A stretch of 64,000 nt of DNA, taken from NCBI GenBank assembly GCA_017303555.1, contig JAFLCN010000008.1:62001-126000 (forward strand). The letters run 5' to 3'. Position numbers and translations under genes: made by a program. Source of the DNA: Planctomycetota bacterium (lineage in GTDB: Bacteria; Planctomycetota; Phycisphaerae; Phycisphaerales; UBA1924). Under the pieces are notes generated by a model that saw nothing but the letters and a program-made list of their open reading frames with translations, did not search any database and was not told the DNA's origin. Shown here in pieces: positions 339 through 24,120 of the stretch; the first letter of the stretch is position 1, and each line of letters starts with the position of its first letter.

Positions 339-1964
339 TCAGACCTCCACGTACGCCTTCAGCCCCTGCACGCCGCCCTCGCGCCCGAACCCCGATTCCT
401 TGAATCCGCCAAACGGGCTCGCCGGGTCAAACTTGTTGTACGTGTTGCACCACACCACGCCGCTCTTGATCTGCTTCGCGATCGAGAGCATTTTGCTCCC
501 CTTCTCCGTCCAGATTCCCGCGGCAAGCCCGTACGGCGTGTTGTTCGCACGGCTGACGGCCTCTTCCGGCGTGCGGAAACTCAGCACACTGAGTACCGGC
601 CCAAAGATCTCCTCGCGCGCGATCGTGTGGCTTGGCTGCACGCCGGTGAAGAAGCACGGGCGGCACCAGAAACCCTTGCTCGGAAGACCATGCTTGCTGC
701 CGGTGTTGCTGGGCGAAACTTCGCCGCTGTAGCCGGGCATGCGGAGTTCCGCGCCTTCGGTCTGACCGAGCTTGAGATAGTGCTCGATGCGGCTGAGCTG
801 CTCTTTGCTGTTCACCGCGCCGACGTCGGTGTTCTTGTCCATCGGATCACCGGTGCGGAGCGAAGCGAGGCGGATCTCGAGCTTCTTGACGACAGTGTCC
901 AGGATCGACTCCTGCACAAACAGCCGCGAACCGGCGCAGCAGACTTCGCCCTGATTGAAATAGATACCGTTGATGATGCCTTCCACTGCCTGATCGATCG
1001 CCGCATCCTCGAGGATGATGTGGGGTGACTTGCCGCCGAGTTCGAGCGTGAGGCGTTTGAACTTTCCGTCCGGCCGCGGTTTCGCGACAGACTTGGCGAT
1101 GATCTTGCCGACTTCCGTGCTGCCGGTGAAGGCGATCTTGTCCACGTCCGGGTGCTCGACAATCGCGCGGCCGGTGACACCGTCGCCCGTGACGATGTTG
1201 ACGACACCCGGAGGCAATCCGCATTCTTCAAAGATCTCGGCAAGCACAAGCGCCGTGAGCGGGGTGGTTTCGGCCGGTTTCAGAACGACGGTGTTGCCGC
1301 AGGCGAGCGCGGGAGCGATTTTCCACGCGGCCATCAGCAGCGGGAAGTTCCACGGAATGACCTGGCCACAGACACCGACCGGGCGCACACCCGACGCTAT
1401 TTCGGGCAGCGAACCCTTGCCGGACTTGGCTTTCGGCGACTGAGATGTCTGGCCTTGGAACACATAGCCGAGCTTGTCGGCCCAGCCAGCGTTGTAAAAG
1501 AAGTGCGCCGCGACAAGTGGGATATCGACGTCGCGTGATTCCTTGATCGGCTTGCCGCTGTCGAGCGTTTCGATGATCGCCAGTTCGCGTCCGCGTTCCT
1601 GAATGCGCCGAGCGATTCGGAAGATGAACTTCGCGCGTTCAGCAGCGGGGAGCCCGGCCCACTTCGGCAGCGCCGCCCTTGCCGCGGCAACCGCGCGATT
1701 CACATCCGCCGGAGTCGCCTGCACAACTTCGCTGAGCGTCGCTTCGGTGCTCGGGTTGATGGTCTCGAAGCGCTTCGCGCCCTTCGGCTCGGCAAACTTG
1801 CCATCGATGAAGAGGCCGTAGGAAGACTTGAGAGCGACCTTGGTCGTTTCGGGGGCGGGGGAATATTCCCAGCCCGCGGGTGCGGAATTGCTATCTCGCG
1901 AGATTCGCGATGTCGAAGGCGACTGCTGAACCGCAACTCCGTTTGTCTCGCCGTTCTTGCTCAT
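339..1964 (-). CDS. NAD(P)-dependent aldehyde dehydrogenase
   Basis: A 541-residue member of the ALDH superfamily, which oxidises an aldehyde to its acid with NAD(P). Visible motifs are 'PWNFPLLM' (cofactor/oxyanion region), 'FTGSTEVGK', 'LELGGKSPHII' with the general-base Glu, and 'NQGEVCCAGSR', where Cys342 aligns with the catalytic Cys. About 60 N-terminal residues precede the usual domain start. The ATG at 1964 is chosen because an AAAGGGA Shine-Dalgarno-like stretch lies just upstream; the frame stays open further 5' but runs into deoC. Only 17 bases separate it from the deoC stop, so the two are probably co-transcribed. DeoC releases acetaldehyde, and this enzyme is a natural candidate to oxidise it to acetate; that substrate is an inference from context. 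Confidence 0.93.
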   Translation of the reverse strand: MSKNGETNGVAVQQSPSTSRISRDSNSAPAGWEYSPAPETTKVALKSSYGLFIDGKFAEPKGAKRFETINPSTEATLSEVVQATPADVNRAVAAARAALPKWAGLPAAERAKFIFRIARRIQERGRELAIIETLDSGKPIKESRDVDIPLVAAHFFYNAGWADKLGYVFQGQTSQSPKAKSGKGSLPEIASGVRPVGVCGQVIPWNFPLLMAAWKIAPALACGNTVVLKPAETTPLTALVLAEIFEECGLPPGVVNIVTGDGVTGRAIVEHPDVDKIAFTGSTEVGKIIAKSVAKPRPDGKFKRLTLELGGKSPHIILEDAAIDQAVEGIINGIYFNQGEVCCAGSRLFVQESILDTVVKKLEIRLASLRTGDPMDKNTDVGAVNSKEQLSRIEHYLKLGQTEGAELRMPGYSGEVSPSNTGSKHGLPSKGFWCRPCFFTGVQPSHTIAREEIFGPVLSVLSFRTPEEAVSRANNTPYGLAAGIWTEKGSKMLSIAKQIKSGVVWCNTYNKFDPASPFGGFKESGFGREGGVQGLKAYVEV

Positions 1965-1981
1965 GAAGTCCCTTTCGCGAT

Positions 1982-3118
1982 TCAAGCTTCGGTCACGTCG
2001 TAGTTGGCGCGATACTTGCCAGAATGCAGCCACGAGATCTGCCGCAGAATGTCGTTGGCGAGCGCCGACGCGCCAAAGCGCCAGAGCTCCGGCGTAAGCC
2101 AGCCACCCGCGTGCAGTTCATTCACACCTTGCAGCGCGCCCAGCGTTTCCTTCACCATCACGAGATAATGCAGCGACTGCTTCGCCGTGCGGATGCCGCC
2201 CGCCGGCTTCACACCCACCAGCTTGCCCGTTTCCAGATACCAGTCGCGCACCGCTTCGAGCATTACCAGCGTCACCGGCATCGTCGCCGCCGGTGTCACT
2301 TTGCCGGTGCTCGTCTTGATGAAGTCAAAGGAGGAATAGGACCTATGGGTCCCATGAGGCTCATGGGTCCCATTCCTTGCCGTGCCGTTCGTAGCGTGCA
2401 GAGCCGAATAAATCGTGTCCGGTTCCAGTTCGCGAGTCGCCTCGTCCATCGCCCGGATCGCAAGATCGCTCGCAAACCGCACGTTGTCCAGCGTCTCGAG
2501 TTCGCCCGTCTCGAGAATCACCTTGAGCGATATCGCGCGGCCTTTCCCCTCGCCATCGTGCCGCGCGGCCTTGACGCCTTCCTGTAGACACGTCCTCTTC
2601 ACCGCGCGAATCTCTTCTGCCACCTCGTCATACCGCCCCGCGAGGAACGCGCCGCGGTTGATGACCATGTCGATCTCGTCCGCACCATCGTGAATCGCGC
2701 GCCGGGTGTCATCGAGTCGAACATCGAGCGGATACTGCCCGCTGGGAAATCCTGTCGCAACTGACGCGATCTTGACGCGTCCGAGCGCGCCCATCGACGC
2801 GAGCGAGTCGCGGCAGTGCTTTACCAGATTCGGATACACACACACCGCCGCCACGCTTGGAAGTCCATCCGGCAAATCAGCCTGGCCCGCGCCGGGGTTG
2901 ACCGCCTTCGCGCAGAGAGCCCGGACCTTCTCGGGCGAGTCTTTGCCCTCAAGCGTCGTCAGATCCAGCATCGAAAGCGCTAGTTTGAGACCGGCGAGCT
3001 TGCTCTTGGATTTGATCGACCGCTTCGTAAAGCTCGCCGCCCGTTCCGCGGCCATCACGGCATCGACCTTGGGCGAAGGAGCGAAGTCACGGCCTGCGGC
3101 TTTGGTGCCGGATTGCAT
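1982..3118 (-). CDS. deoC: deoxyribose-phosphate aldolase (DeoC)
   Basis: A class I aldolase that cleaves 2-deoxyribose-5-phosphate into glyceraldehyde-3-phosphate and acetaldehyde, the last step of deoxynucleoside breakdown. The Schiff-base Lys is Lys268 in 'DFIKTSTG'. The second active-site Lys is in 'GVKPAGGIRT' (about 303), and 'DEIDMVIN' holds the conserved acid. At 378 residues it is clearly longer than bacterial DeoC (about 220-260): there is an N-terminal extension of about 50 residues and two insertions. One insertion (about residues 240-262) is encoded by a GGGTCCCAT-type repeat immediately before the catalytic strand. It is the first gene of the deoC-aldehyde dehydrogenase pair. 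No convincing Shine-Dalgarno sequence is seen at the ATG. Confidence 0.93.
   Translation of the reverse strand: MQSGTKAAGRDFAPSPKVDAVMAAERAASFTKRSIKSKSKLAGLKLALSMLDLTTLEGKDSPEKVRALCAKAVNPGAGQADLPDGLPSVAAVCVYPNLVKHCRDSLASMGALGRVKIASVATGFPSGQYPLDVRLDDTRRAIHDGADEIDMVINRGAFLAGRYDEVAEEIRAVKRTCLQEGVKAARHDGEGKGRAISLKVILETGELETLDNVRFASDLAIRAMDEATRELEPDTIYSALHATNGTARNGTHEPHGTHRSYSSFDFIKTSTGKVTPAATMPVTLVMLEAVRDWYLETGKLVGVKPAGGIRTAKQSLHYLVMVKETLGALQGVNELHAGGWLTPELWRFGASALANDILRQISWLHSGKYRANYDVTEA
2340..2373. repeat. short GGGTCCCAT-type interspersed repeat inside deoC
   Basis: The bases read as two ATGGGTCCCAT units separated by GAGGCTC and preceded by GGACCT, so the segment is largely self-complementary. 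It stays in frame and encodes an Asn-Gly-Thr-His-rich insert in DeoC just before the catalytic 'DFIKTSTG'. From memory it resembles dispersed GGGACCCAT/GGACCTATGGG repeats found in several bacterial genomes; that link has not been checked. Confidence 0.5.
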
Positions 3119-3144
3119 GGGGAAAGTTTATGCTCGCCTGCGTT

Positions 3145-3615
3145 CTATCGCGTGCTGCCGCGCCGGCTCGTTGGCATCGGAGCCGGCAAGGTTCCGGAAG
3201 GTCCGTCTTCGAGCGGCAGTGCGGCGCGCCTCCATTCGTCGACGCCCCCTGCGAAGGTGCGTACATCCGCGTAGCCGATCTGCATCATCCGCTTCGAAAC
3301 AACCGGGCCCGCGACATCGCCGGGATTCTGGCCATAGACGACAATCTCTTTGAACTGGGAGATGCGAGGGTCGATGCCTTTCGCTCCGTCAAATGTCGCA
3401 AGCGACAAATTCACGGCTCCGGGGATATGCGCCGATTCGAACGCGTCGCGGGGTCGGGGATCAATGAAGAGCGCGCTGAGCGGATCGGCGTCGCGCTGTC
3501 GATACAGCGCCGCAGTTTGATCGAGCCCGATCGGTTCGATGTCGTTGTCCGAAACAGACTGGCAACCGGACAGAACGACAATGCCGCCGAGAACTGCGCC
3601 GGTGAAGCGAACCAT
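3145..3615 (-). CDS. rhodanese-like lipoprotein lacking the catalytic cysteine (second copy)
   Basis: 156 residues from the ATG at 3615. The N-terminus 'MVRFTGAVLGGIVVLSGC' is a lipoprotein signal with lipobox LSGC, so the mature protein is probably membrane-anchored outside the cytoplasm. One rhodanese domain follows: 'LFIDPRPRDAFESAHIPGA', then the active-site loop, then 'FAGGVDEWRRAALPLE'. The loop reads 'VVYGQNPGDVAG', with Gly where active sulfurtransferases carry the persulfide Cys, so it is predicted to be non-catalytic. The start overlaps the upstream rhodanese stop by one base (TGATG), implying translational coupling. It is a paralogue of that neighbour. A longer in-frame ORF extends 5' but would remove the lipoprotein signal from the N-terminus. 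Confidence 0.85.
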   Translation of the reverse strand: MVRFTGAVLGGIVVLSGCQSVSDNDIEPIGLDQTAALYRQRDADPLSALFIDPRPRDAFESAHIPGAVNLSLATFDGAKGIDPRISQFKEIVVYGQNPGDVAGPVVSKRMMQIGYADVRTFAGGVDEWRRAALPLEDGPSGTLPAPMPTSRRGSTR

Positions 3616-10334: not shown

Positions 10335-10470
10335 GGCCGGCTCGCCGGTGTCGGTCTTGCTCGGAGCGTGATCGGTCACGCCTTCGGGGGCCGGGCGGAT
10401 TCGATCGAACCCGCCGTGCTGACGGCCTTCCGATCGGGATTGATCCCCGATGGCTACTCCCCAACAACTG
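10335..10470 (-). promoter_or_regulatory. yybP-ykoY manganese riboswitch in the terC leader
   Basis: Read on the minus strand, the leader contains the class hallmarks in order. First comes GGGGAGTAGCC (10462 to 10452). Next is a GGGATCAATCCC hairpin and GCCGTCAGCACGGC. Last is GAGCAAGACC (10362 to 10353), followed by a short GC hairpin. GGGGAGUAGC...CGUCA...GAGCAAGACC is the conserved core of the Mn-binding yybP-ykoY aptamer, seen for example upstream of E. coli alx. The aptamer sits about 60 bases before the terC ATG. The 3' CCGG/GCCGG and CCCG/CGGG elements could be the expression switch. The outer boundaries are approximate. Confidence 0.9.
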
Positions 10471-10509
10471 CGGGGCGATGGTAGCCGCCCGTTCCGGGCA
10501 CGGGAACGG

Positions 10510-12597
<2,088 letters not shown>

Positions 12598-12651
12598 GCG
12601 GCCTTGGCTCCGGCACGGGGTTTATCGAGTCTGACCGACGCGGGAAGGGTA

Positions 12652-14520
12652 TCAGCGTCCGTTGACCTTCGGGTACATCTTCAGGTCCGCGCCCAGCTTC
12701 TGGCTCCGGGCGGCGGCCTGCGCGATCCGGGCGAGGAGCGAATCGGTATCAGTCCCGGTTGGGGGCGGGGCGGCACGTTCGGCCTCGATCTGGGCCAGAC
12801 GGAGGCACTCGGACCAGTGGCGCCGCAGTCGTTCCGAGTCGCCGCCCGTCTCGCGTTCGGTCCGGGCCTGGAGGATTGTGGCGGCGGACTGCGAGTCCGT
12901 GGAGGACAGCCGGGGCAGGAGCGAACCGAAATCCGGAGCTTCGGCACCGAGCACAGAGAGCGTCAACTCCGCAAGCTCGGAGAGTTCGGGAGATTCGAAG
13001 CGATCGGGCGCGAGCATCTTCCTTCCGGTCGCGTCGAGGGTCGCGAGGAGCGAGGGGTCGCAGAGCGCACAGCCGAGCAGCGCCTCGAGCGTCTTCAGCG
13101 GTCCGTTTGCCAATCGAGCGACCGGCGAAGCCGCCGGGCGCGGATCCTGAGGTGAAGCCGGAGCGTCCGGCCGCTTGCGGGCGCCGCGTGCAGCGGGGAT
13201 CGCCCGGGCGATCGTTTCCTCGCCGATGTCCGCAAGCCTTGCCAGTTCGCGCACGATCATGCGCCGGCGCACGGGTTCGACATCGCTCAAGCCAAGATCG
13301 GCCAGCCGGGAAACTTCTTCCTCGACAGCGCGGCTGCGGACCGCGATGCCCCCGCCTTCGACGCTCCTGGCGACACGCGCAAACCGATAGCGGAGAACAT
13401 CGACTCCGGCTCCCACGGCTTTTCGAAGGACATCGAGACCCCCCTCGCGTTTGAGCAGTTCGTCCGGGTCCTTCGCGTCGGTGAATCGCTCGAGCGTCGC
13501 GACCACAACGTCGAGCGGTTCGGCGAAGAAGATCTCCGCCGCCCGATCGGCGGCGCGCTGTCCGGCATCGTCGCCGTCGAAGAGCAGCACGACTCGATCG
13601 CACAAACGCCGGAGGATGACCGCGTGCTCGCGGGTGAGCGCGGTCCCGAGCGTCGCGACGACATTCTCCATGCCGGCCTGATGGCAGGCGATGGTGTCGG
13701 TATAGCCCTCCGTGATGACGGCCGTTCGCTGCACCTGGATGGCTCGCGAAGCTTGGGCGAACCCGAACAGCGTGGCCGACTTGTTGAACACGCGGCTCTC
13801 GGGGCTGTTGAGGTACTTTGGTTCCTCTTCTTCGTCGATCTTCCTCCCACCGAAGGCGATGGTGCGCCCGATCATGTCCGAGATCGGAAACATGAGGCGG
13901 TTGCGGAAGGTGTCGTACATGTGCCCGGTTTCGGCCTTCGTGCGAAGAAGGCCGGCCTCGGCGAACGCACGCGGATCGAGTTGCTTGCTGCGGATCGTGA
14001 GGAGAAGCCCGTCGAAGCGATCCGGTGATGCACCGATGCCGAACTTCTCGACCATCGCGGGCGAGATCGCACGCTTCTCGACGATCGCTCGCGCCGCCCG
14101 ACCGTGCTCGGGGTGGTTGTAGACAGCCTTGAAGAACTCGGCGGCCACCGCGTTGGCCTCGTGGATCTGCGAGCGGGAAACTCCGTCGCCGCCCTGCTCG
14201 GCCGCGTCGCGCCGGCGCGGCTTCAGTTCGATTCCTGCGCGCTGGGCGAGGTACTCGAGCGCCTCGCGAAACTCCATGCGATGGAACTTGCGGACGAACG
14301 TGAAGACGTCACCGCTGGCGCCGCACACGAAGCAGTGGAAGATCTGCTTGTGGGGCACAACGCCCATCGACGGGTTGTGGTCATCGTGGAAGGGGCAAAG
14401 CCCGGCGTACTCCCGCCCTTTGGGCTTGAGCGCCACCACCTCGCCGATGATCCGAACGATGTCGCTCGCGTCGCGGACGCGCTGCTTCTCCCCGTCGTCT
14501 TGCCAGATCGTGTTCGACAT
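12652..14520 (-). CDS. dnaG: DNA primase
   Basis: A 622-residue bacterial primase that makes RNA primers at the replication fork. The CHC2 zinc-binding site is Cys42-His45 ('LCPFHDD') with Cys63-Cys66 ('FHCFVCG'). The TOPRIM catalytic core contains 'VITEGYTDTIACHQAG' with the acidic residue and 'LLFDGDDAGQRAADRA' with the metal-binding DxD. 'NRLMFPISDMIGRTIAFGGR' belongs to the RNA-polymerase subdomain. The C-terminal helicase-interacting region is divergent. The ATG at 14520 begins 'MSNTIWQDDGEKQRVRDASD'; a longer frame upstream overlaps the acylphosphatase region on the other strand and lacks family similarity. It is followed closely by rpoD. Confidence 0.95.
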   Translation of the reverse strand: MSNTIWQDDGEKQRVRDASDIVRIIGEVVALKPKGREYAGLCPFHDDHNPSMGVVPHKQIFHCFVCGASGDVFTFVRKFHRMEFREALEYLAQRAGIELKPRRRDAAEQGGDGVSRSQIHEANAVAAEFFKAVYNHPEHGRAARAIVEKRAISPAMVEKFGIGASPDRFDGLLLTIRSKQLDPRAFAEAGLLRTKAETGHMYDTFRNRLMFPISDMIGRTIAFGGRKIDEEEEPKYLNSPESRVFNKSATLFGFAQASRAIQVQRTAVITEGYTDTIACHQAGMENVVATLGTALTREHAVILRRLCDRVVLLFDGDDAGQRAADRAAEIFFAEPLDVVVATLERFTDAKDPDELLKREGGLDVLRKAVGAGVDVLRYRFARVARSVEGGGIAVRSRAVEEEVSRLADLGLSDVEPVRRRMIVRELARLADIGEETIARAIPAARGARKRPDAPASPQDPRPAASPVARLANGPLKTLEALLGCALCDPSLLATLDATGRKMLAPDRFESPELSELAELTLSVLGAEAPDFGSLLPRLSSTDSQSAATILQARTERETGGDSERLRRHWSECLRLAQIEAERAAPPPTGTDTDSLLARIAQAAARSQKLGADLKMYPKVNGR

Positions 14521-18776: not shown

Positions 18777-20360
18777 TCAGTTCAATTCAACACAGACCCA
18801 ACCCGCTTCATCCTCTGCCGTGCCGGGCGGGGCGGTGAGAAGGTGGAGGCGCAGATCGCTGTCGCCGAGCCGACGCACGCTCTTGGGTTCGTCGGTCATC
18901 AGATGACAGACGGCAGCCGAAGTGCGGAGATGCGGGTGGGCCATGGCCATCAGTGATGCGTGAGCTTCGGCCCAAGACTTGGCGGTTGTCAGAGCACCGA
19001 GGGTCATGCCGGGGTCGCTCGCTGCGCGTGCGATCAGGTGGAGGCGGCCTTCGGGGTCAACCGCCAGTTCAACTTCGGGTGCGTACGGGCACTTGGAAGC
19101 CAGCGATTCGAGGCTTTCAAGGTGGCGGGCAAGGCCGCGGGATTCGGTGGCGGGCTTGGCGACGGCCGCACGGCTCGGCGTGGGCGCTGGAGCCTGCGTG
19201 GGACGCGGTTCGATTCGAGGCTGAACGGGCGGGAGGATCGGAGCGCTTGCGAACTCGGTCGCTTCAAACGCTGGCTGCGTGACGGGCGGGACAGCGTTCG
19301 GTTCGGCGATGCCGGAGTCCGGGTCGTTGGCGTCTACGAAATCCTGGTCGAATGCCTCGGCTTCCAGTTCGGGTTCCACTGCGATCGGCTTCGGCTCTTC
19401 CGTCGGAGCGGGGCCGCCCCGAAGCAGCGAGATGAGATCGGCATGTCCCGCGTTCGGTCGCCCGCGATACACGTTCACCGATGATCCCGGGGTGATCTTC
19501 GCGCTGCACGCCTCGCTGGTGACGCGGGATTTCAGAAACTTTTCTGCAGCGCGAGAGAGTTTGCCCGCCGCTTCGTCCGCGCGTGTCGGGTTCGAGCCCA
19601 TCACGGCGACGTGAAGGCGGGGAGTTGCTTCTCCCGGCTCAAGCGTCTTGATGACGCGATAGCAGCCGACGACCGCCGCTTCATCCGCGCCGGTCAGCAC
19701 CGTGACGCGATCGGCGATGCGGATGCTTGAGGCGGCGTCTGCCGCGGAGGCGCGATCGGCGCTCTCGTCCAGCCTCACGATCCAACGGCCTGTCCGCTGG
19801 GCGACGTAACGCACGGCCTCCGCGATGCTCGGCATCGGGCCACTCTGGGGCGGGACTTCGCTGGGGGGGAGCGTCAGATCGACCGTCGCTTCGCCTCCGC
19901 TGAGACGGATCAGACCCACGGGCGTGCCCGCGTGCTGCGCAACGTGCTTGGCGTATTGCAGGACCCATGCCGAGCCCAAGACGGGCAGGTGACCGACAAG
20001 AAGCAACTCGACTTCCGTCTGCTGGAGCAAGCGCGACGGGGTCGGCTTCACCGGCATGGCGATCGTTTGTTTCTGAGACTTGGGCTCCGCAAGAAACGGC
20101 TCGGTCGCTGTCGGCTTCACCAGCCCGTTGGGGCCGATCTTCGCGACCGTGGGTCCGTCGTTCAGGAACAAGTCTGCGAGGACGTCGGCGTCTTCGAACG
20201 GATAGCCGAGCTCGATCCGTCCGTGCGCGACCGGGCCGCCCTCATCCGTCGTGCCCGGCGCAGCGGGGTCGTCGCGCATCGCGGCACGAAACGCGATCGA
20301 GTCGGGCGATTCCCCGTCCGGGTAGGCCCCGTTCGGATGCGATTGGTCACGTCCGTCCAC
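18777..20360 (-). CDS. MinD/FlhG-like pseudo-ATPase partner of the ParA-CBM48 protein
   Basis: 527 residues from a GTG with a good AGAGGGG ribosome site. The central region (about residues 110-320) looks like a SIMIBI/ParA-MinD fold. 'VELLLVGHLPVLGSAWVLQY' occupies the place of strand 1 and the P-loop. 'IADRVTVLTGADEAAVVGCY' followed by 'RVIKTLEPG' matches the FlhG/MinD strand-helix. 'RLHVAVMGSNPTRADEAAGK' followed by 'LSRAAEKFLKSRV' matches the FlhG region where partner residues lie. The Walker A lysine pattern (KGGxGKT) is missing, so ATP hydrolysis is not expected. A Pro-rich linker and an unrecognised conserved-looking C-terminal domain of about 110 residues follow. It starts 13 bases after the ParA-CBM48 stop, so the two are surely co-expressed. 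The fold assignment is by eye. Confidence 0.7.
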   Translation of the reverse strand: MDGRDQSHPNGAYPDGESPDSIAFRAAMRDDPAAPGTTDEGGPVAHGRIELGYPFEDADVLADLFLNDGPTVAKIGPNGLVKPTATEPFLAEPKSQKQTIAMPVKPTPSRLLQQTEVELLLVGHLPVLGSAWVLQYAKHVAQHAGTPVGLIRLSGGEATVDLTLPPSEVPPQSGPMPSIAEAVRYVAQRTGRWIVRLDESADRASAADAASSIRIADRVTVLTGADEAAVVGCYRVIKTLEPGEATPRLHVAVMGSNPTRADEAAGKLSRAAEKFLKSRVTSEACSAKITPGSSVNVYRGRPNAGHADLISLLRGGPAPTEEPKPIAVEPELEAEAFDQDFVDANDPDSGIAEPNAVPPVTQPAFEATEFASAPILPPVQPRIEPRPTQAPAPTPSRAAVAKPATESRGLARHLESLESLASKCPYAPEVELAVDPEGRLHLIARAASDPGMTLGALTTAKSWAEAHASLMAMAHPHLRTSAAVCHLMTDEPKSVRRLGDSDLRLHLLTAPPGTAEDEAGWVCVELN

Positions 20361-20373
20361 GCTCGTTCCCCTC

Positions 20374-22068
20374 TCAGGCTGCGCCCTGGCGCTCGAGAAC
20401 CAGGTCCATCCTCGCCGCGGCGGCGCTCTGCACCATCACCACGCTGTTCAACTCTCCGAACGGATTGAGTTCGGCGTTGGAGTTGTGCGGGTCGGCCGTC
20501 CAGTTGCCGTCCACGACGAGGCGGTATTGGTGATTTCCGGGTTCGATCGGGACGCAGAGTTCCAGGACACCAAGTTCCTCATTCAGCCGCATGACGTGCG
20601 AAGTGTCGGACCAGTTGTTGAACGATCCCGCGATCGAGACCTTTCGCCCGAGCGTCACCGGCTGCACAAACAGCACACCCTGCGCGGTGACGCGGACGCC
20701 AAGAAGCCGCCGATCCGGCTCGTTCGGCCGCTTCGGCTTCATCTCCGTGACCGGCGCCTCGAAGCGCAACGGGGTGGTCGAGATGTTCTCGTCTGTTTTT
20801 TCGCCGGTCACCCGACGCAGAAGCCGCTGAGCCCGGTGGACGAGTTCCGCGGCTCGGCTGGTGGGGCGTGGCTGCTCGTCCGTTCCGGCAAGCTGGCCGG
20901 CGGACGTCGTTGCGAAGGGGGTGTAGACGCTGACCGTTCGATCGGCCGGATTCGGAACCATCACCGCCGGCGAGGCTTGGATGGAAGTCGGAATGCCGAA
21001 GGGCGTTGGGCTTGCGGCAGCGCGATCGGCAACCGGCCCGGTCGTCGAACCTGGATCGCTGGCTTTAGCCGGATCGGAGACCGCCTGCTGAAGGAGCGAG
21101 GCCCGTAGGTCCGCAGCGGAGGTGGCGGCACCACCGGATGTCGCCATCGGCCCACGCAGGCCCACCGGGCCGCTCGGGGCCGGATCAGCGGGCGGAAGGT
21201 CGATGACCGGGGGCTTGGTTGCTTCCGGCTTGAGTTCGATCGGGCTCGAGCGACTCCAGGCCGGATCGGGGCCGGAGAAGCCGGAGAGCTTCAGGTTGAG
21301 CTTCGAGGCCACCCAGCGGGCCAGATCGAGGTAGTCCTTGCTGCCGGGCGAATCCGGGGCGTGCTCAATAGCCGGCTGGCCGAAGCTGGCGGCTTCCCGG
21401 AGCTTTGGATCGCGCCGGATCACGATCGGCGAAAGCTGGTGTCCGAATCGACGCTGCAGTTCACCCAGCAAATCGTGGGAAACGGTGCTTCCCTCATCGT
21501 GGAGCGTTGGGACGAACGAGATCGGGATTTCCACGTTCAAACGCTTGGCCAGCGTCTTGATCGTGGTCAATTGCCGTGTCGCGCCCTGCAGGGCGAAAAA
21601 GCCCGTCTCGACGGGGATCAGGACGCTGTTGGCCGCGGCAATGGCGTTGAACGTCAGCAGGCCGATCGCCGGGGAGCAGTCGATCAGGGCAACGTCGTAG
21701 TCGGCGCGGAGCCGCTCGAGCACCTGGGCCAGGCGGCGTTCCTTGTCGGGTTTGTCGGCCAGGCCGCCCCGCGCAGCTTCGAGGCCGGCGAGCTTCATGC
21801 GGCTGGGTGCGAGGTCCAGATTCCGCCCGACGCGCCAGAGCAGGCGGGTGGTATCAATTGGGCGGTTGTTGGGCAGGACCATTACATCGCCGATGTCGAG
21901 GTCGATGCGGGTTTCGGGGATCCCCAGCCCGACCGCGCAGTGCGATTGCGGGTCGAGGTCCACGAGAAGGGTCCTGAGGCCGCCGCGGGCCATGGCAGCC
22001 GCCAGATTGATGGCGGTGGTGGTCTTGCCGCACCCGCCCTTTTGATTGATGATCGTGATGATCCGCAC
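20374..22068 (-). CDS. ParA-family ATPase fused to a C-terminal CBM48/AMPK-type glycogen-binding domain
   Basis: 564 residues. The N-terminal 260 residues form a complete ParA/Soj ATPase: deviant Walker A 'KGGCGKTTT' at residues 10-18, switch I-like 'LLVDLDPQSHCAVGL', Walker B-like 'VALIDCSPAIGLLTFNA'. A long Pro/Ala/Ser-rich linker (about 265-440) leads to an Ig-like domain (about 455-545) closely resembling AMPK-beta CBM48: 'VSIAGSFNNWSD', then 'HQYRLVVDGNWTADP' and 'GELNSVVMV'. Trp486, Trp523 and the Asn near 540 match key sugar-contacting residues of AMPK-beta; the Lys is Arg and the Leu is Phe. ParA ATPases position DNA or large cargo on the nucleoid. A sugar-polymer cargo is an inference. 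No parB or replication gene is nearby. Confidence 0.9.
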   Translation of the reverse strand: MRIITIINQKGGCGKTTTAINLAAAMARGGLRTLLVDLDPQSHCAVGLGIPETRIDLDIGDVMVLPNNRPIDTTRLLWRVGRNLDLAPSRMKLAGLEAARGGLADKPDKERRLAQVLERLRADYDVALIDCSPAIGLLTFNAIAAANSVLIPVETGFFALQGATRQLTTIKTLAKRLNVEIPISFVPTLHDEGSTVSHDLLGELQRRFGHQLSPIVIRRDPKLREAASFGQPAIEHAPDSPGSKDYLDLARWVASKLNLKLSGFSGPDPAWSRSSPIELKPEATKPPVIDLPPADPAPSGPVGLRGPMATSGGAATSAADLRASLLQQAVSDPAKASDPGSTTGPVADRAAASPTPFGIPTSIQASPAVMVPNPADRTVSVYTPFATTSAGQLAGTDEQPRPTSRAAELVHRAQRLLRRVTGEKTDENISTTPLRFEAPVTEMKPKRPNEPDRRLLGVRVTAQGVLFVQPVTLGRKVSIAGSFNNWSDTSHVMRLNEELGVLELCVPIEPGNHQYRLVVDGNWTADPHNSNAELNPFGELNSVVMVQSAAAARMDLVLERQGAA

Positions 22069-22498
22069 GCGCCACTCCTTGGCCTCGGCGAACCGGACCC
22101 CATGAACGCAAGGGCTTCCCGGATTCTGAGCGGAAGGAACCGCCCCCGTCGTCCAGCAACAGCGCCGATCGTGCGAGCGCGGATCACTCCGTCTATTGCA
22201 ATATCGGAAACCGCCCGCGGAACGCTTGAAAGGGGAGTTTTTTGCCGCCTGCGGGCGCGCTCAGTCCATCGGTCTTCGATTCTCACGTTGTCAGCCGGCC
22301 GTCTCACGCGTGCGTGGCACCACCGGGTGGACGCGCACGAAAAAATTCAGCACGGAATATCGCGCCGTGCGCGCCCAACGGATGTTGGGGCATGGTACGT
22401 TTCAAAGGCGACGGGAATCGCTGGCGGACAGCGCGCCCGCGGGTACGATCGGTTCGCAGATCGGCTGGTTTCTTGGGGCATTTTCCGGGTATTCGCAT
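22069..22498. other. 430-base divergent intergenic region, promoters expected
   Basis: The region separates the minus-strand ParA-CBM48 operon from the plus-strand NTF2-like gene and must hold both promoters. Frames running through it show no recognisable protein. It includes AAAGGGGAGTTTTTTGCC near 22230 and A/T-rich spots near 22340, but no -35/-10 pair stands out and no structured RNA was recognised. Confidence 0.4.
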
Positions 22499-23392
22499 AT
22501 GAAACAATGTCTTGCCGCGGCCGTGGTCGTCTTTGTCGGGTTGGTTTCTCGGGGTGCGGGCGGTGCCGAGCCCGATCCGCGTCAGGCGGAGATCACGCAG
22601 GCGGCGCAGGCCTTTGTCGAGGCGTATGAGCGGGGCGACGCGAAGGCGATCGCCGCGATGTGGACGCCCGATGCCGACCTGATCGATGTCGAGGGGCGGG
22701 TCTTGAAGGGCCGGAGCGCCATCGAAAAGGACTTCGCGGATTTCTTCCGCGAGAACAAGGGACAGAAGCTGCGGATCGATGTGGAGTCGGTCCGGTTCGT
22801 CGGCCCGGATATGGCGATCGAGGATGGGACGACCTCGGCCCTGGCTCCCGATGGCTCGGGTTCGAGCCGGGCGCATTACACCAACGTTCTGGTGAAGCGT
22901 GACGGCAAGTGGATGATCGCGAGCGTGCGGGAAGCACCGTATGTGCCGCCGTCCAACCAGCAGAACCTTCAGCCCCTGTCCTGGGTAATCGGCGAATGGG
23001 CCGATCCGGTCGAAACAGGCCATCAGGCGCGGGTGTTGTTCGAATGGACCCCGGATCGGAACTTCATCCTGGCTTCCCGCGCGGTCCGCGTTGGGGACAA
23101 GTTCCTGGACAACGGCACGCAGCGCATCGGCTGGGATCCGGCGTCGAAGCAGTTTCGGTGCTGGAATTTCGAACCCGATGGTGGCTTCGGCGATGGTCAG
23201 TGGACGCTTCAGCCGGACGGCTCGTGGAACGTGCAAGCCAGTTCGGTCTTGCAATCCGGCCACAAGGCGACTGCGACGACCGTCGTGACGCGCCTCGACG
23301 CGAACACGATCACCTACCAGGCCAAGAACCAGACTGTGGATGGCAAACCCGTACCGGATTCTGCCGTCGTGACCATGAAGCGCATCAACTGA
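22499..23392 (+). CDS. exported SnoaL/NTF2-like (SgcJ/EcaC family) protein
   Basis: 297 residues. A signal peptide of about 23 residues ('MKQCLAAAVVVFVGLVSRGA') is followed by an NTF2-like domain with the SgcJ/EcaC pattern 'FVEAYERGDAKAIAAMWTPD', 'LKGRSAIEKDFADFF' and 'HYTNVLVKRDGKWMIASVRE'. These cone-shaped folds bind small molecules or, in some cases, isomerise them. The second half (about 160-297) is a beta-rich lipocalin-like region, 'LSWVIGEWADPVE', often fused to this domain in planctomycetes as I recall it. The ATG at 22499 is chosen because the signal peptide begins there; the upstream open frame is unconvincing. It starts a row of three exported-protein genes on the plus strand. Confidence 0.8.
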   Translation: MKQCLAAAVVVFVGLVSRGAGGAEPDPRQAEITQAAQAFVEAYERGDAKAIAAMWTPDADLIDVEGRVLKGRSAIEKDFADFFRENKGQKLRIDVESVRFVGPDMAIEDGTTSALAPDGSGSSRAHYTNVLVKRDGKWMIASVREAPYVPPSNQQNLQPLSWVIGEWADPVETGHQARVLFEWTPDRNFILASRAVRVGDKFLDNGTQRIGWDPASKQFRCWNFEPDGGFGDGQWTLQPDGSWNVQASSVLQSGHKATATTVVTRLDANTITYQAKNQTVDGKPVPDSAVVTMKRIN

Positions 23393-23424
23393 TTCGGACG
23401 CACATGCGTTCAAGGGAGCCGGAC

Positions 23425-24120
23425 ATGCTGATCAAGGCAATCGCGTATTCCGCTTTGACCGGAGCGTTTTTCGCGTCGGTTACTTCGCCCGCCTTTGGCT
23501 GGGGATGCAGCCGCTCGTGCTCCGGCTCGGGTCGATACGGCGGCAGCTTCTCGCATACCAGCGGGTCGTCCGGCAACGGCGAGGGAAGCTGGTCGCACGG
23601 CGGTTCGACGTCGTACACCAGCCCGAGCGGGGAGTCCTATTCAGGTAGCCACTCCGGTTCGGGCTACGGGCGAAGCTACAGCGGCAGTTACTCGGGCAGC
23701 AACAGCTACGGGCAAAGCGCGAGTTCGCACTATTCCGGATACGCAGGCGACGGCTACCACGGCTCGTACTCGACCTCGGGCGGCTACAGCGGCAGCTACT
23801 GCGGCTATCACGGAACGACGTATGTCGCGCCCACGACCTACTGCGGCAGCACCGGCGGCGCCTTTGCCGCCGGGATGGTGACGGGTGCCGCAACCACCGC
23901 GCTCGTGGCGTCCGCAGCGGCGGCTTCGCAGCCCGCTCCTGTGTACGTGGCGCCGACGACTGTTGTGACCTCGCCGGTGGTCGTGACCTCGCCGGCGGTC
24001 GTGACCACCACAACCACATCGACGACGGCGGCGGGCGTGCCAACAACGACCACCACGTATTCGTATCCGCAGTCCGGGGTGTATGTCAGCCCGACGGCCT
24101 ACGTGCAGCCCGCTCTCTGA
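23425..24120 (+). CDS. exported Ser/Gly/Tyr-rich low-complexity protein
   Basis: 231 residues. The signal peptide ends near 'VTSPAFGW' and the mature protein starts with 'GCSRSCSGSG'. Residues about 35-125 are almost entirely Ser, Gly, Tyr and His in degenerate 'YSGSYSGS' repeats, with four scattered Cys. The middle carries a short hydrophobic Ala-rich stretch ('FAAGMVTGAATTALVASAAA') and the tail is Val/Thr/Pro-rich with runs of Thr. The ATG at 23425 follows AAGGGAGCC and puts the signal peptide at the N-terminus; an ATG at 23404 would add seven residues. No family is recognised. The composition suggests a disordered, possibly adhesive or surface-coating protein. Confidence 0.7.
   Translation: MLIKAIAYSALTGAFFASVTSPAFGWGCSRSCSGSGRYGGSFSHTSGSSGNGEGSWSHGGSTSYTSPSGESYSGSHSGSGYGRSYSGSYSGSNSYGQSASSHYSGYAGDGYHGSYSTSGGYSGSYCGYHGTTYVAPTTYCGSTGGAFAAGMVTGAATTALVASAAAASQPAPVYVAPTTVVTSPVVVTSPAVVTTTTTSTTAAGVPTTTTTYSYPQSGVYVSPTAYVQPAL

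Follow-up and report, generated by a model that had tools for sequence, protein, structure and literature searches.

A ParA/Soj ATPase fused to a CBM48 domain and the protein encoded by the gene that follows it constitute a two-gene module that occurs across the class Phycisphaerae and is new to the literature searched. The fusion is neither a product of chance nor private to one genome, and the analysis suggests a module that positions or senses an intracellular object with a sugar coat. The partner gene was missed in the initial annotation, and it bears on mechanism more than does the CBM alone.

Organization of the fusion protein

Within the window, which is the whole stretch of 64,000 nucleotides that was analysed, the fusion gene occupies positions 20374 to 22068 and encodes 564 residues; the initial annotation gave no strand for this open reading frame, which lies on the minus strand. 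Its identification rests on the reading frame with a Shine-Dalgarno sequence, on Pfam matches to AAA_31 and AMPK1_CBM, and on an AlphaFold model. By direct reading, an AAGGAG ribosome-binding site (22075-22080, minus strand) was located six bases 5' of the GTG start; third-codon-position GC is 0.80, and a coding-type codon-position bias extends over the full length. An Rfam scan of the 64,000-nucleotide window returned no match.

The AlphaFold2 model, built from an alignment of 65 sequences, contains two confident domains, residues 1-256 and about 453-548, with a low-confidence linker between them. The first (21301-22068, minus strand), delimited by Pfam, AlphaFold, fold search and alignment, is a ParA/Soj ATPase domain: residues 2-181 match AAA_31 at E 1.3e-44, the nearest solved relatives in a sequence search were 8ray, 6iub and 1wcv (ParA/Soj), and the fold is Soj-like, with TM scores on the target of 0.86-0.90 for 9a6n, 8ray, 1wcv and 6iub. 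A complete ATPase with a deviant Walker A motif had been claimed initially, and the motif residues were found as described; the motif, KGGCGKTT, includes K10 and K15, and the catalytic aspartate is residue 39. The long Pro/Ala-rich linker, also reported at the outset, spans residues 257-452 (20713-21300, minus strand) and is predicted to be disordered on account of its low pLDDT. AlphaFold and the alignments place a conserved helix within it, at residues 405-420 (SRAAELVHRAQRLLRR; 20809-20856, minus strand), an order-level feature that is absent from the class-level set.

The assignment of the C-terminal domain to CBM48 was supported. This domain, a putative glucan binder of AMPK-beta type, comprises residues 453-548 (20425-20712, minus strand); residues 474-548 match AMPK1_CBM (PF16561) at E 4.4e-13 and 49.7 bits (cut-off 26.8), the protein also matches the Pfam family CBM_48 at E 4.3e-5, and the nearest solved structures to residues 453-553, by PDB sequence, are AMPK-beta glycogen-binding domains (1z0n, E 8.6e-10). 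Structure prediction, which had been proposed as a check, yielded a confident beta-rich domain with pLDDT of 90-98. All the residues singled out initially are present: W486, W523 and N541, which is the Asn of GELNSVV. R516 joins them in the alignment, and we take W486, R516, W523 and N541 to be the equivalents of AMPK-beta W100, K126, W133 and N150. Two further positions differ: F/Y stands where AMPK-beta has L146, and E where it has T148.

Residue conservation was counted in two alignments, one of 65 orthologues and one of 24 class-level fusions. The deviant Walker A lysines, the catalytic Asp and the Walker B Asp of the ATPase (K10, K15, D39 and D130) are invariant in 65/65 orthologues, as is the unusual C44, and K10, K15 and D39, the three ATPase positions checked at class level, are kept in 24/24. 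All 65 orthologues match PF16561 at E <= 0.001; position 486 is Trp in 65/65, position 523 is Trp in 64/65, position 516 is Arg or Lys in 64/65 and position 541 is Asn in 58/65, and the equivalents of all four residues are each found in 24/24 class-level fusions. Given the near-invariance of both sugar-platform tryptophans, the Lys/Arg and the Asn, binding of alpha-glucan by the fused CBM48 is plausible.

Conservation at the putative DNA-binding surface is uneven. The non-specific DNA contacts reported for Helicobacter pylori ParA, K199, K227, K230 and K247 (PMC11229316), align with fusion positions 198, 219, 222 and 239. Among class-level members, position 198 is basic in 24/24 and position 222 in 23/24, and position 239 is not basic; in the window's own order these positions are eroded, the K227 and K247 equivalents being unconserved and the K230 equivalent being K/R in 34/65. 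DNA binding is therefore plausible across the class but uncertain for the window protein.

Distribution of the fusion and its partner gene

Full-length matches to the fusion were found across the genus, family and order. When 198 genomes were sampled across the class, about 115 contained a strong match to the CBM, nearly all within long frames, and at all 24 class-level loci examined ParA and CBM shared one frame; the survey of Phycisphaerae proposed in the initial annotation thus revealed a class-wide feature. No strong match was found among the sampled genomes of families f15, f18, f22 and f25 and most of f9. Stand-alone small CBM48 frames of about 90-145 residues are common in the class (for example G096:C1:1141391-1141666), and they occur also in the fusion-less families f15 and f18.

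Of the named GenBank loci, 74/80 were fused (Phycisphaerales, Phycisphaeraceae, Tepidisphaera and others), in a set that is biased because it was chosen for resemblance to the window ParA. Three of the six unfused loci end at contig edges, and three (L135, L136 and L153) are truly without CBM. At these three, and in genome G031, a ParA of this family without CBM48 is still followed by the partner gene. As the three named loci retain ParA and partner alone, the CBM is dispensable in some lineages. G031 and some family-2 genomes no longer have the fused CBM or have lost its Trp. One genome, G041, has a fused CBM48 without both Trp (L060, contig 91) and, on contig 15, a separate 203-residue protein with a CBM48 that has both (L169, 3037-3645, plus strand); this pair is possibly a split of the fusion.

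In a phylum sample of 294 genomes, part of them inside the class, only G294 and G361 outside the class passed E 1e-22. The G294 locus (G294:C274:4000-9500) encodes a true ParA-CBM48 of the KGGVGKTT type and is a second, divergent version of the ParA-CBM48 module. There, the fusion gene (2110-3336 of the locus, minus strand) is followed by a degenerate MinD-like gene (1112-2167, minus strand).

The partner gene of the window (18777-20360, minus strand) encodes 527 residues and begins 13 bases 3' of the fusion gene. Its GAGGGG ribosome-binding site, read directly at 20368-20373 on the minus strand, lies immediately past the stop codon of the fusion, which suggests that the two genes are translationally coupled. 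At 34/40 loci of the window's own order the partner lies 3' of the ATPase gene and shares its strand; of the six exceptions, three are other ParA paralogues or contig fragments. The partner is the next gene at 70/80 named loci, and it was recognized next to 11/24 class-level fusions, about half of which have no adjacent partner. In the window the pair is flanked by one divergent gene and by a convergent clpX, and the pair persists while aroB, rsfS, clpX and other neighbours vary between loci. An open reading frame elsewhere in the window (22909-24120, plus strand) has a second half of Gly/Ser/Tyr- and Thr-rich low complexity (SYSGSYSGSNSYG..., TTTTTSTT). On contig 40 of the same genome, about 2 kb from the second ParA gene of the genome, a 773-residue protein with a C-terminal AAA_31 fragment is encoded (10342-12660 of locus L170, minus strand).

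The partner protein and its proposed action on the ATPase

Searches with the partner protein against Pfam, NCBIfam, PHROG and PADLOC gave no family match; for the module as a whole, PHROG and PADLOC searches returned just weak or generic ParA matches, and a defence or phage role was rejected. Its residues 116-313 (19422-20015, minus strand) were assigned to a degenerate FlhG/FleN-like (SIMIBI) domain from the model, fold and profile searches and alignment. Foldseek found this domain to be FlhG/FleN-like at E 1.6e-6, and FlhG was the top fold in VIA (Z 10.9; rmsd 5.1 over 167 residues or 3.6 over 160), the next unrelated folds lying near Z 8. Against PDB sequences the partner profile matched only FleN/FlhG (E 9e-4), and it also matched the FlhG genes of the same genomes. 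The P-loop site reads GHLPV...W, the FlhG-type GKGGVGK not being kept; given this loss of the Walker A Lys from an FlhG-like domain, the modelled fold and the sequence indicate a pseudo-ATPase of FlhG/FleN type. Homology of the partner to the fused ParA itself was rejected, as an hhalign profile comparison of the whole partner gave no match. A C-terminal alpha/beta domain (residues 410-527; 18780-19133, minus strand) is modelled confidently by AlphaFold2, and no match to it surfaced in a fold search that hardly covered that part.

The most conserved part of the partner is a DxLxxLFL motif, in which all 62 sequences share L61, F65 and L66. It falls in an N-terminal helix defined by AlphaFold2 and alignment (residues 56-66, DADVLADLFLN region; 20163-20195, minus strand), for which we propose a ParA-binding role. 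In ParA/MinD systems the partner works on the ATPase through a peptide at its N-terminus and uses the rest of the protein for the cargo (PMC10241942); the ParB peptide of Myxococcus xanthus uses L11, R13, L15, L18 and I19, and its pocket is formed in part by ParA L150, L152, L155 and L192 (PMC12462528), which in our alignment read as I135, L137, F140 and L177 of the window ParA. In deep class members the corresponding motifs of the partner, GRGISSIAHHFLS, RISNIAHFFLS and RSLSEISHLFLS, have a ParB-like look; the motif of the window partner has no basic residue of the sort usual in ParB peptides. The gene 3' of ParA-CBM48 in G294 specifies a degenerate MinD-like protein of another kind, which has no Pfam match and was recognized by eye; its start, KKLGRGIEDFIG, with a ParB-type LGRGIEDFIG motif, is close to the N-terminus KLGRGLSALL of the ParB of the window's own genome. 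From motif and context, and by analogy with ParB and McdB, we reasoned that the 527-residue protein is probably the cognate partner of the ParA-CBM48 ATPase, and that it likely activates it. The partner is not itself a ParB, for it matches neither ParB_N nor any other Pfam family, and the ParB of the genome is on contig C42.

Cargo, competing explanations and known systems

Partitioning of glycogen granules, as originally proposed, was not upheld. No GlgA match was obtained in the window's own genome (TIGR02095 at 1e-30, PF08323 at 1e-10), and among the 198 class genomes GlgA exceeded its cut-off in one, with a GT5-type match in 58; canonical GlgB was found in 21, against about 115 with the fusion, and GlgB-like matches in 88 overall. 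A phosphorylase match, mostly of a short GT35-like form, was obtained in 143/198, the own genome included. GT35 and GlgB-like enzymes are thus common in the class, yet GlgA is almost missing from it. Also encoded in the own genome are GH13 proteins of GlgB-like and amylase-like type, and the N-termini of several look signal-like by eye. Presence of the fusion was not associated with any GlgB-like match (odds ratio 0.6, p 0.08); it was found in 18 of the 21 carriers of canonical GlgB (odds ratio 4.9, p 0.009), a statistic that ignores phylogeny. These gene contents indicate alpha-glucan chemistry of some kind, without the textbook glycogen operon, which makes "glycogen granule" too specific; the reading we prefer is a positioning module linked to glucan.

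Our best explanation, which we hold tentatively and at somewhat less than even confidence, is a two-gene module for spatial organization of the ParA/McdA kind, the identity of the cargo being its weakest step. ParA-CBM48 would dimerize with ATP and bind a matrix, which in most class members would be the nucleoid, and the CBM48, on its long flexible tether, would anchor the ATPase to an intracellular alpha-glucan, candidates for which are a branched malto-oligosaccharide and a glycogen-like or glucan-coated body; cargo and ATPase gradient would in this way be coupled through sugar. The cargo-recognition module would then be located on the ATPase itself, unlike in ParABS or McdAB. That an alpha-glucan body is the cargo, or a matrix replacing the nucleoid, with the CBM on the ATPase and the pseudo-FlhG protein as hydrolysis trigger, we regard as rather doubtful; if true, a polysaccharide would be organized in space by an ATP-driven system.

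The module might instead regulate rather than move, the CBM48 reporting alpha-glucan (compare AMPK-beta) and the ParA/pseudo-FlhG pair acting as a nucleotide switch on a downstream target, as do FleN-FleQ or, in polysaccharide synthesis, BcsQ. The sole relatives of the partner are FleN/FlhG proteins, some of them regulators; the ParA is matched by BcsQ models, below cut-off (TIGR03371, E 1.9e-26), and BcsQ is a SIMIBI ATPase linked to polysaccharide secretion (PMC7439463); the eroded DNA contacts of the own order and the mostly missing canonical granule synthesis point the same way. However, the ATPase is nearer to Soj than to MinD, FlhG or BcsQ, two basic DNA-contact positions are kept at class level, and no conserved regulator, kinase or glycosyltransferase was seen as a neighbour at the own-order loci examined, and we consider a regulatory role unlikely, if worth retaining. 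It is also conceivable, though we would not favour it, that the CBM48 has passed beyond sugar binding to become a protein-protein or assembly module in a system that positions protein cargo. The absence of GlgA, the substitutions at the L146 and T148 equivalents and the lineages that have lost the CBM or its Trp would fit such a module; against it, the platform Trp pair, Arg and Asn are kept in nearly all fused copies (24 and 65 sequences), a retention unexpected had sugar binding been lost, and where the fused CBM is degraded (L060), the genome has a separate CBM48 with both Trp. Finally, the Soj-like core with all its catalytic residues would be expected of an ordinary chromosome or plasmid partition ParA bearing a decorative C-terminal extension, which we judge very improbable: the partner is not a ParB (no ParB_N match), a canonical ParB is encoded elsewhere in the genome (C42, E 1e-31), and a second ParA is on another contig (C40).

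Cargoes placed by ParA/MinD ATPases include plasmids, chromosomes, carboxysomes and chemoreceptors. In the literature searched we found neither a polysaccharide cargo of ParA/MinD nor a glycogen-granule ParA, and the initial statement that no ParA-CBM48 fusion has been characterized agrees with that search. With a ParA that occurs class-wide, keeps its sugar-binding residues and comes with a partner of its own, the use of such a motor by bacteria to place carbohydrate stores or ensure their inheritance becomes directly testable, and the annotation-less partner family gains a candidate function, in a class that has few cultured members.

Compared with known systems, the proposed glucan-linked positioning module most resembles chromosomal ParA/Soj (ParABS) in its ATPase, with 35-39% identity over about 250 residues, the same fold, a deviant Walker A and the catalytic Asp; it differs in carrying a CBM48 on a long linker, in having a pseudo-FlhG partner rather than a ParB CTPase, and in the lack of an adjacent parB. 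McdA/McdB, which positions carboxysomes, likewise pairs a ParA ATPase with an adjacent, otherwise unrelated partner, and McdA (6non) matches the fold, but identity is about 22%, McdB is small whereas the partner here has 527 residues with a pseudo-FlhG domain, and here the putative cargo module is on the ATPase, with no apparent connection to carboxysomes. The central domain of the partner shares its fold and distant sequence similarity with the MinD-like FlhG/FleN, from which the partner departs by the missing Walker A, an extra N-terminal motif and C-terminal domain, and a location outside any flagellar cluster. The CBM48 resembles the AMPK-beta glycogen-binding domain in sequence and in its presumed binding residues, and is distinguished by the two substitutions noted above and by its attachment to ParA instead of a kinase scaffold. 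BcsQ/BcsE too combines an ATPase of ParA/MinD type with its own multidomain partner and is tied to a polysaccharide (PMC7439463); there, however, the polysaccharide, cellulose, is a beta-glucan, the characterized domains of BcsE are REC*-GGDEF* and not pseudo-FlhG, and BcsQ carries no fused CBM.
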